Shown here in pieces: positions 7,210-9,655 of a stretch of DNA of 56,715 bases. Source of the stretch: a virus. The stretch lies in IMG/VR virus record IMGVR_UViG_3300009545_000025, positions 1 to 56,715 of that record; one strand, given 5' to 3'. Each line of letters opens with the position of its first letter. Position 1 is the first letter of the stretch. A program made the translations under genes and the position numbers. The notes beneath the pieces were generated by a model. It did not search any database. It had not been told where the DNA came from and saw nothing but the letters and a program-made list of their open reading frames with translations.

Positions 7210-8541
7210 ATGCGCTGTCTCCTTATCGACCAAGAAGGGCTGTTCCTGGATCTTGCTCTCAGGCTCGCCGCCTGCGGAAACGAAGTCCGTTGGTATGAGC
7301 ATGTCGATAAGGGAAAGCACGAGCCGCGCGATGGAGAGGGCTTCAAGGGGATAAAGAAAGTCCCGGACTGGCGCGAGCATATGCCGTGGGCCAAGGATGG
7401 CCTGATCATCTGCTCCGGCAACTACGTGTTCATGCATGAACTCGATAGATACCGGGAGTTCGGATACAAAATCTTCGGCCCTTCGGCTAAATCCGCCGAG
7501 ATGGAAATCAAGCGCTTCAAGAGCATGGAGGTAATGAAGTCCCTCGGCTTCGATCTCCCGCCCTACCACATGTTCAACAGCCTGGAGGAAGCGGAGCAGT
7601 TCGCCCGGAAGTCGGACAAATGCTACGTCTTCAAGACCAACGGGGACGAGGGGAACAAGGACATGACGTTCGTGTCCTGCGACCCCGCCGAGATGGTCGG
7701 CTGGCTCCGCAACAAGATCGCACGAGGCGTGAAGGTCGGCAGCCAATGCATGCTGCAAGAGAAGATCGATATGCTGTGCGACTACGGCATTTCGGGCTGG
7801 TTCGGTCCCGAGGGATTCCTTCCTGAGAAGTACCAGATTGCGTTCGAACACAAACGGCTGATGGACGGCGAGATCGGCCCCCAGACCGGGGAGCAGGGAA
7901 CGGTTTGTCAGTACGATCCAAACGAGAAGCTTGCCAAGGAAATGCTCCTGCCGATGGCGCCCGTGCTTCAAGCTTTGGGGCACCGTGGAGACTTCGCTAT
8001 CGGTGTGGGCATAGACAGCAAGGGGAAGGCATGGCCCTTCGAAGTCACCGCCAGATGCGGCTGGCCGGCCTTCACCATCCAAACCGCATCGCATAGAGGA
8101 GATCCCGCCAAGTGGATGCGCGACCTGCTGGACGGGAAGGATTCGCTGAAAGTCTCGAACGATGTCGCTATCGGCGTCGTCATGGCGCAACCGATGTATC
8201 CATACGCAAAATCCCCCCCTGAAATGGTCGAGGGTAACCCGATCTCGGGCGTGGATGATGTCTGGGACAACCTGCACCTTCACTCGGTTATGTTGGGGCG
8301 AGGGCCGGTCATGAAGGACGGCAAGGTCACCGAAGGATCGGTCCACATGACAACCGGAGAATATGTTCTGGTTGCTACGGGACTGGGGAAAACCATCACC
8401 AAGGCACGGGATAAGGTCTATTCCACGGTGAACGAGATCAAGTTCCCCTCGGCGATGTACCGAACCGATATCGGCAAAAAACTGGAGGACAAACTTCCGG
8501 CTCTTCACAAGGCCGGATATGCCCTCGGAGTTGAGTATTAA
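7210..8541 (+). CDS. PurD-like ATP-grasp carboxylate-amine ligase
   Basis: 443 residues, about the size of bacterial PurD (phosphoribosylamine-glycine ligase). Visible landmarks: an N-terminal Rossmann-like segment (MRCLLIDQEGLFLDLALRLA), the lead-in FGPSAKSAEMEIKRFKSME (as in PurD GPs..AA.LE.SK), a nucleotide-binding strand CYVFKTNGDEGNKDM, the metal-binding segment FEVTARCGWPAF in place of PurD's E(F)NxRFGDPE, and a C-terminal domain with TGEYVLVATGLGKTI and YRTDIGKKL (PurD YRxDIG). Key residues of the metal site differ from housekeeping PurD, so the substrate may not be phosphoribosylamine. It sits among virion genes, not nucleotide genes. Confidence 0.8.
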   Translation: MRCLLIDQEGLFLDLALRLAACGNEVRWYEHVDKGKHEPRDGEGFKGIKKVPDWREHMPWAKDGLIICSGNYVFMHELDRYREFGYKIFGPSAKSAEMEIKRFKSMEVMKSLGFDLPPYHMFNSLEEAEQFARKSDKCYVFKTNGDEGNKDMTFVSCDPAEMVGWLRNKIARGVKVGSQCMLQEKIDMLCDYGISGWFGPEGFLPEKYQIAFEHKRLMDGEIGPQTGEQGTVCQYDPNEKLAKEMLLPMAPVLQALGHRGDFAIGVGIDSKGKAWPFEVTARCGWPAFTIQTASHRGDPAKWMRDLLDGKDSLKVSNDVAIGVVMAQPMYPYAKSPPEMVEGNPISGVDDVWDNLHLHSVMLGRGPVMKDGKVTEGSVHMTTGEYVLVATGLGKTITKARDKVYSTVNEIKFPSAMYRTDIGKKLEDKLPALHKAGYALGVEY

Positions 8542-8584: not shown

Positions 8585-8608
8585 GCAGCGCCGTGATGGC
8601 GCCGCAGC
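8585..8608 (+). repeat. 24-bp exact repeat, copy 2 (contains a hairpin)
   Basis: Identical to 2731-2754. It sits between the motif-B palindrome and the original start codon of the tail-fibre gene at 8622. Contains GCGCC-GTGAT-GGCGC. Confidence 0.75.
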
Positions 8609-8621
8609 CCATGGATGGATT

Positions 8622-8657
8622 ATGGCGGTTGCCCTCTCGCCAACGCTGATCCCGCAA
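8622..8657 (+). pseudogene. Orphaned first 12 codons of the tail-fibre gene
   Basis: The ATG at 8622 opens MAVALSPTLIPQ, exactly the first 12 residues of the gene now starting at 9338. After codon 12 the frame runs into the antisense of an HNH gene and has no sensible continuation. Nine of eleven codons after ATG differ from the copy at 9338, always at the third base. This is the original 5' end, disconnected by insertion of the HNH element. Confidence 0.8.
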
Positions 8658-8666
8658 GCTAACGCC

Positions 8667-9287
8667 CTAATTGGGATCGAGCACCCGTTCTATTGGAAGC
8701 CCCTTGCGGAAGCGCTGATAGATCGAGCCAGACGAAATGCCGAGGCGGGCGGCCCACTGAGCAATGCTCATCGTTACCCCCTTGTGCGTGAGGCGGTGGA
8801 CATTGCGGCGGTTCTGAGATTGCTCTCGAACGCTGGCCCATTTGCAATTATCCGGGGAGTAGTCTCCCTCATTGTCAATTCTTTCGAGAGTCTTGCCGCT
8901 CGGCCTGTGGCCCATGTCGGCAAAGAAGTTCTCGAAGCTCATCCATCTCTCACAAACACGGATGCCCCTGCCCCCGTAGTCAGCGTAACTGCGCGTGTTG
9001 GGATTGTAGCACCTCCGCTTCATGCAACACCAAATACCATAGATTTTGGACTTACCCATTTTATGGGTGGATGTCCGTTCGCCTATAGTCTTTCGACTGG
9101 CGAAACATCCGCAAGAAATGTTGTTACCACTGCCGAGCAACTTGCCCTCAATGGCGCAAGTGTTCCCACAGTCGCATCGGCAGAGCCACTTTCCAGGATT
9201 TCTGAGTGTCCCGTGGAGGTAGCTCATCGTTGTGAGCCTTCCGAACCGCAGGCCTGGCGAAAATTTAGGAATGCTTTTTCCAGTCAT
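8667..9287 (-). CDS. HNH homing endonuclease
   Basis: 206 residues from the ATG at 9287; an in-frame TTG at 9323 is less likely. Domains in order: an N-terminal zinc-ribbon-like segment (WLCRCDCGNTC, then SCGC), the HNH-type core around YGGRGIRVCERW, FFADMGHRPSG, LERIDNEGDYSPDNCKWA, and a C-terminal helix-turn-helix-like segment (MSIAQWAARLGISSGSIYQR). This order is typical of free-standing phage HNH proteins. It lies antisense to the interrupted tail-fibre gene, and its own promoter places the transcript start close to the ATG, so it may be read from a leaderless mRNA. Confidence 0.85.
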   Translation of the reverse strand: MTGKSIPKFSPGLRFGRLTTMSYLHGTLRNPGKWLCRCDCGNTCAIEGKLLGSGNNISCGCFASRKTIGERTSTHKMGKSKIYGIWCCMKRRCYNPNTRSYADYGGRGIRVCERWMSFENFFADMGHRPSGKTLERIDNEGDYSPDNCKWASVREQSQNRRNVHRLTHKGVTMSIAQWAARLGISSGSIYQRFRKGLPIERVLDPN

Positions 9288-9294
9288 GGTCGCG

Positions 9295-9323
9295 ATTGTA
9301 TCGCGAACGAATATGGAATGCAA
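9295..9323 (-). promoter_or_regulatory. Sigma70-like promoter of the HNH gene
   Basis: Reading the minus strand: TTGCAT (9323-9318), 17-bp spacer, TACAAT (9300-9295), then seven bases to the ATG at 9287. The -10 is strong (5/6), the -35 weak. The predicted start lies at about the ATG. Confidence 0.45.
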
Positions 9324-9337
9324 CGGGAATTGCCACG

Positions 9338-9655
9338 ATGGCTGTAGCGCTTTCCCCGACGCTCATTCCACAATATTTCATAGCGGGTCAGCCCGCTTCC
9401 GGGGCGCTTTTGTTCAGCTACATGGCCGGAACTACGACCAAGCAGGCAGTCTATATCGACTCCTCGCAAGGTACGCAGTTCACCAACCCGATCATCCTGA
9501 ACGCTGACGGCTATCCCCAGGATAGTTCCGGCAACCCATGCGGCCTGTGGCTCGACCCCACGCTTGCCTACAAGTTCGTCTTCTCCCCCTCCACCGATAC
9601 CGATCCCCCGACCGATCCGATCTGGACGATCGATAACGTGGTTGCGCCGACGTGA
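9338..9655 (+). CDS. Tail fibre/adaptor protein with recoded 5' end
   Basis: 105 residues. The start ATG at 9338 is preceded by GGGAA, and the first 12 codons are the recoded copy of 8622-8657. The protein has the pattern of N-terminal domains of phage tail fibres: FIAGQPASGALLFSYMAGTTTKQAVYID, then NPIILNADGYP. Such domains attach fibres to the tail. The larger fibre gene at 9663 follows seven bases after its stop. Confidence 0.75.
   Translation: MAVALSPTLIPQYFIAGQPASGALLFSYMAGTTTKQAVYIDSSQGTQFTNPIILNADGYPQDSSGNPCGLWLDPTLAYKFVFSPSTDTDPPTDPIWTIDNVVAPT

Follow-up and report, generated by a model that had tools for sequence, protein, structure and literature searches.

Homing endonucleases that lie outside introns and inteins have no self-splicing to spare the gene they enter, which raises the question of how they can invade conserved genes and still leave the phage viable. 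One answer is a replacement for the lost gene end, carried by the element itself. Such replacement ends are known from the mobile ORFs of fungal mitochondria, described in atp6 of Allomyces macrogynus and in atp6, atp9, cox2 and nad3 of Glomus (PMC3630166). There, the endonuclease gene lies beside the host gene, an imported end of foreign origin completes that gene, and the native end, in a case differing from a relative only synonymously, is left duplicated (PMC3630166). The fungal enzymes belong to the LAGLIDADG or GIY-YIG type, and the ends concerned are C-terminal ones in mitochondria (PMC3630166). Unlike these, the elements described below carry HNH enzymes, reside in phages and prophages, occur at 5' as well as 3' gene ends and are often antisense.

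Among phages, the mob and seg genes of T4-like phages are the most similar in kind. According to the available text of PMC2988022, they encode HNH or GIY-YIG enzymes without an intron, lie in or next to a host gene, and spread by break repair with co-conversion of their flanks. The same text describes T4-type insertions that leave the host gene divided in two separate functional parts (mobE in Aeh1 nrdA, mobA in gene 60), and no replacement end appears in that part of it. Phage HEG islands similarly place nuclease genes at exchange boundaries and carry neighbouring genes along, but in the accessible part of PMC10448857 the cargo consists of whole genes or operons, and duplicated gene ends at the insertion point are not described.

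At the locus reported here, unlike the genes split by mobA and mobE, the downstream gene restarts from codon 1. A synonymously different gene end is also supplied by e14 and phage 21 when they integrate in E. coli icd; these use an integrase and att sites, whereas an endonuclease and break repair are proposed here. The logic of a replacement end further resembles that of engineered rescue drives, in which the rescue copy is recoded. Home-and-rescue drives (PMC7968924) cut an essential gene and supply a working, cut-resistant copy; they are designed, CRISPR-based and used in animals. Our search of the open-access literature found no phage paper on replacement ends or on translation passing through an antisense endonuclease gene.

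The window analysed here is the whole stretch of 56,715 nucleotides that forms positions 1 to 56,715 of IMG/VR virus record IMGVR_UViG_3300009545_000025. We consider it probable that a free-standing HNH homing element has entered the 5' end of a tail-fibre-family gene in this window and brought a replacement 5' end with it, by the repair route and with the ribosome passage proposed below. Its layout appears to resemble that of the fungal mobile ORFs, and with an HNH enzyme at a 5' end we claim no shared lineage. The parallel with fungal mitochondria drawn in the original prediction was accurate, the replacement-end endonuclease ORFs being those of PMC3630166.

A duplicated gene start flanks an HNH gene

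The peptide MAVALSPTLIPQ is encoded twice on the plus strand of the window, at 8622-8657 and at 9338-9373. The upstream copy, which we call the stub, reads ATG GCG GTT GCC CTC TCG CCA ACG CTG ATC CCG CAA, and the downstream copy, which opens the restored gene, reads ATG GCT GTA GCG CTT TCC CCG ACG CTC ATT CCA CAA. Three codons are the same (ATG, ACG and CAA) and the other nine of the 12 each differ by one synonymous third base, exactly as had been predicted to the base. After codon 12 the copies part exactly, the stub running into GCTAACGCC... and the gene into TATTTCATA..., and 5' of either ATG there is no similarity. The duplicated peptide scored 57, more than any of 601 cross-locus null comparisons (maximum 51), and this score was reached by one of 635 pairs in a second null set.

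Synonymous positions are saturated in this pair, since nine codons differ where 7.0 of 11 would be expected if both copies were drawn at random from the window's own codon usage. The N-terminal codons of tail-fibre relatives vary, with a median of 5 of about 12 identical. Given this variability, identity at 12 of 12 residues combined with saturated synonymous change would be unusual for natural divergence.

The DNA between the copies (8658-9337), which is missing in syntenic relatives, takes in the HNH gene together with the leader that precedes the replacement start. The HNH gene (8667-9287, minus strand) encodes a putative homing-type endonuclease; its predicted identity was borne out by a match to PHROG 374 (6.9e-61), and other HNH and restriction-endonuclease families matched as well. 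Its start is the ATG at 9287, with TTG 9323 as an alternative. The protein has a CxCG zinc-finger-like N-terminus, an HNH core and a C-terminal HTH-like repeat, and belongs to our alignment A1, in which the core motif residues are among the invariant columns. It had no Pfam match at 0.01, and a PDB search gave no close sequence relative. A perfect inverted repeat, TCGCGAT-tgt-ATCGCGA (9290-9306), lies in the gap that separates the start codons of the HNH gene and the restored tail-fibre gene and is a candidate operator; promoter-like sites in the element did not exceed chance. When the locus DNA was searched against phage DNA, similarity was confined to the HNH gene. Downstream, the intact tail-fibre-family gene (9338-9655, plus strand, 105 aa) has 13 IMG/VR relatives, the best at 58% identity.

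Group I introns and inteins can carry HNH enzymes of related kinds, and an element of either sort would make the two copies exons joined by splicing. Here, however, the HNH gene is antisense. The downstream copy has a start codon of its own and is complete as a gene, so that a stub spliced to it would repeat the peptide. Rfam matched no RNA family at the gathering score, leaving no intron signal. We regard splicing at this locus as scarcely credible.

The upstream copy lies at the native position

An ATP-grasp / GARS-C-like gene (7210-8541, plus strand; Pfam GARS_C, 3e-13) lies upstream of the stub and marks the position of the native tail-fibre start. The same gene stands directly 5' of the tail-fibre gene in IMG/VR relatives L001-L007, L015, L016, L028-L031 and L037, and its stop and the tail-fibre start often overlap in IMG/VR relatives. 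The HNH gene is absent between the two genes in most relatives and is thus polymorphic in presence. These relatives bear out an insertion after codon 12, as the gene is uninterrupted in them behind the same ATP-grasp gene. More widely, an ATP-grasp / phosphoribosylglycinamide-synthetase-like gene is a conserved tail-fibre neighbour in many phages.

Between the ATP-grasp gene and the stub lies a 5' leader, GCGCCGTGATGGCGCC (8588-8603, plus strand), of which CGCCGTGAYGGCGCC is shared with L016, where it also stands between ATP-grasp and tail fibre. Because the upstream copy occupies the syntenic position and has this leader, we take it to be the native stub, made up of the tail-fibre gene's own first 12 codons, start codon included, upstream of the element. 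The downstream copy would then be a replacement start that came with the element or was changed by it. That it keeps the protein, as predicted, follows from both copies encoding the same peptide. Which copy came from donor and which from recipient we infer from synteny and from the other loci described below, since no relative is near enough for codon comparison at an empty site. A degenerate DNA pattern of the 11 codons after ATG had no match in IMG/VR, so the empty site of the window's lineage was not found there.

The two copies could alternatively derive from tandem paralogous tail-fibre genes, with the HNH gene having taken the place of most of the first copy or left it degraded. One relative, L008, does carry two tail-fibre copies in tandem. 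In syntenic relatives, however, a single copy follows right after the ATP-grasp gene, and two separate full-length genes were looked for and not seen there. Moreover, the similarity between the window's copies ends exactly at the HNH junction. An element inserted into one gene therefore remains our preferred reading.

The start of the tail-fibre gene seems to be a repeated HNH target. Another HNH gene lies at the window's locus in L027, without a recognisable stub.

The layout recurs at both ends of phage genes

Relatives of the HNH protein were gathered from viral and bacterial contigs, and the best peptide shared between the two flanks of each element was compared with that of cross-locus flanks, with a score of at least 56 taken as a flank duplication. 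This threshold was reached by 9 of 201 elements against 0 of 601 null pairs in a first set, and by 4 of 128 new elements against 1 of 635 in a second. Pooled, the difference is 13/329 versus 1/1236 (p=1.5e-8), or p=3e-7 without two low-complexity hits. Flank hits at L159, L209, L206, L389, L384 and L424 were dropped as low-complexity by eye. A recognisable stub is present in just a few percent of HNH relatives.

The duplications take two mirror-image forms. In the first, a 5' stub, the HNH gene and a complete gene follow one another; besides the window, these cases are L070 (ParB-like), L164, L194 (RusA-like), L199 (helicase-like), L191, L068, L064, L156, L254 and L049/L045. In the second, the complete gene comes first and the HNH gene separates it from a 3' stub, as in L050 and L272, L167 (integrase-like), L088, L203, L373 (ligase-like) and L370. 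The scores of L191, L203, L199, L068, L254, L156 and L049 were below the threshold, and these were accepted by inspection. The "-like" names are taken from sequence motifs rather than from a family search. The stub forms an in-frame fusion with the beginning of the HNH gene in L194, L199 and L049, L045 being grouped with L049 as a stub-HNH fusion, and in L088 and L203 the HNH end continues into the 3' stub.

Cultured phages carry the layout too. Xanthomonas phage LucasX has a 5' stub of a macro-domain-like gene with a score of 97, and in Vibrio phage 1.133.O the HNH gene is fused to the 3' stub, here from a MazG-like gene, with a weaker score of 46. Empty-site searches for L194 and L199 in the host families returned distant orthologues without the duplication, too far away for codon comparison. 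They do show that the site is a conserved motif, which reads LPYPxSA|NRYW for the RusA-like gene.

The original prediction had expected few phage examples, which does not hold: the layout recurs across the HNH family. Replacement gene ends, familiar from fungal mitochondria, thus recur in phages, at both gene ends. The same order around unrelated ParB-, RusA-, helicase-, ligase-, integrase-, MazG- and macro-domain-like genes also argues against tandem paralogues, an origin that we judge very improbable for the window.

Other HNH genes were seen along with these. Further antisense HNH genes at the start of a window-type tail-fibre gene are found at L027 5320-5862 and L156 2403-3421 (reverse complement). 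In APSE-1/2 and Caulobacter phage RW, HNH genes of the same family lie within or overlap annotated DNA polymerase genes.

Replacement ends resemble diverged orthologues

Across 16 pairs of duplicated ends we counted 100 synonymous and 69 non-synonymous codon differences, the latter being under-counted because the pairs were chosen by peptide similarity. The window and L272 are the extremes, with zero non-synonymous differences, and the spread among pairs suits imported orthologous ends that had diverged to different degrees. As most pairs also carry amino-acid changes, the apparent recoding in the window is probably the ordinary divergence of an imported orthologous gene end. Of the recoded replacement exon that had been predicted, the synonymous replacement start is there in the window; purpose-made recoding is unneeded, given the non-synonymous changes in other pairs.

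Recoding could instead have been selected if an element captured the end of the gene it had entered and selection, disfavouring both renewed cleavage and recombination with the stub, later pushed the intact copy to change synonymously. The window's differences suit this, being all synonymous and saturated in spite of an N-terminus that varies between relatives. So do the copies in L050, where 13 of 16 codons differ and a single residue is altered, and those in L164, which start identical and diverge toward the junction. Most other pairs, however, show the amino-acid changes expected of orthologues (the 69 against 100 above). A long-dead stub should also change at all codon positions, yet the window's copies differ at synonymous ones only. 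Selected recoding is therefore unlikely in our view, and an imported orthologous end is the reading that we follow.

One pair of phages bears on how such ends travel. L050 and L272 are two phiKZ-like contigs whose flanks are about 75% identical and whose HNH proteins are 85% identical, and the intergenic part of the element, from the gene end to the HNH gene, reaches about 97% (counted from the alignment). Since element and replacement end are more alike than their surroundings, they would have been transferred after the hosts diverged, which points to movement of the element between phages together with its replacement end. The native 3' stubs of the two differ mainly synonymously, so these ends appear to have diverged while still coding, before the insertion; this again speaks against selected recoding. 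The L050 gene has phiKZ-like homologues at about 40% identity, whose C-terminus was too divergent for calling native and imported copies.

A proposed route of insertion

These observations suggest the following route. The HNH enzyme would cut the recipient gene after codon 12, in a conserved stretch near the gene end. One broken end would be repaired by homology on a donor phage, in which the HNH gene lies beside that phage's own, already diverged version of the gene, and the other would be linked to the element's left edge by a non-homologous join. Of the recipient's gene start, the 12 native codons would then stay behind as the stub, with the cut marked by the point where it ends. The end supplied by the donor, synonymously different, would restore the protein and lose the original site. 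Should cleavage, repair and resistance of the new end proceed in this way, the stub end would predict the cut site of each enzyme; target sites could thus be mapped from sequence alone, and cleavage is directly testable.

Antisense HNH genes are often free of opposite-strand stops

From the stub ATG, a plus-strand frame (8622-9347) crosses the antisense HNH gene without a stop for 241 codons and ends at a TAG (9345-9347), ten bases inside the restored gene. Similar antisense frames are present in L027, where the stop overlaps the restored start as ATGA, and in L064. The original prediction had overlooked that the stub frame stays open to the restored start.

Fully open in-phase antisense frames were counted across HNH genes and compared with a codon model fitted on co-directional HNH genes. 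In the first set, 6 of 20 antisense genes were fully open against 1.29 expected, and 6 of 138 co-directional genes against 5.4. The result was replicated on new loci with the hypothesis fixed beforehand (antisense 11/23 against 1.38 expected, co-directional 4/79 against 2.3). Antisense HNH genes thus lack stops on the opposite strand more often than co-directional ones (pooled 17/43 versus 11/217, p=1.5e-8). The contrast persists when loci are clustered at 60% identity (14/37 versus 6/163, p=1e-7), and the open antisense genes are at most 56% identical to one another. It is seen almost only in the in-phase frame (17, 0 and 1 open cases by frame). Neighbour strands were called heuristically and a few calls are wrong (L050 is co-directional but was labelled antisense); as far as we have seen, such errors dilute rather than create the contrast.

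GC content or codon bias may by itself produce open frames of this kind. GC-rich genes frequently have an open in-phase antisense frame, and with flanking-gene codon usage as the baseline the excess shrinks, although 17 open cases still compare with 8.0 expected (P=1.4e-4). Co-directional HNH genes of matched GC are nevertheless rarely open (5/109 versus 13/30 antisense, p=8e-7), the prediction was recorded before the replication on new loci held, and two HNH genes in the AT-rich phage L357 are fully open at 37-38% GC. The stops of open frames also lie near the next start: the distance is at most 25 nt in 8 of 17 open cases and in 3 of 34 other frames (p=0.003), a moderately significant difference that depends on an automatic, noisy choice of start, wrong for the window. 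An explanation by base composition or codon usage is thus rather unlikely.

Selection for ribosome passage would account for the open frames differently. In antisense insertions, selection would keep the strand opposite the nuclease gene free of stops, so that ribosomes from the native start or from an upstream gene terminate at the restored or next start and are handed to it, leaving translation of the operon unbroken. In the window, ribosomes may pass through the element from the stub to the restored start in this way, as the codon statistics suggest. We consider it evenly balanced whether antisense homing endonuclease genes in phage operons are, in general, dual-strand sequences under selection both for the nuclease and for stop-free passage. 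If true, this would be dual coding by a selfish gene, of which we found no earlier report in the open-access literature, and together with the replacement end it would make the insertion nearly invisible to the host.

Junctions of the kind seen in L027 occur elsewhere. The antisense frame ends in TAATG in L398 and L357, and in the cultured Gordonia phage CherryTomatoes it spans 220 codons and ends in ATGA with the next gene. Around the open cases, the antisense neighbours look like typical structural and lysis genes of phages. Neither of the two antisense HNH genes of L357 has an in-phase antisense stop, and one of them seems to have left a tiny 3' stub (AKV stop) with a TAATG junction. In L394 (2375-4108, reverse complement), a 577-codon open frame begins at a short upstream start, crosses the antisense HNH gene and continues into downstream sequence.
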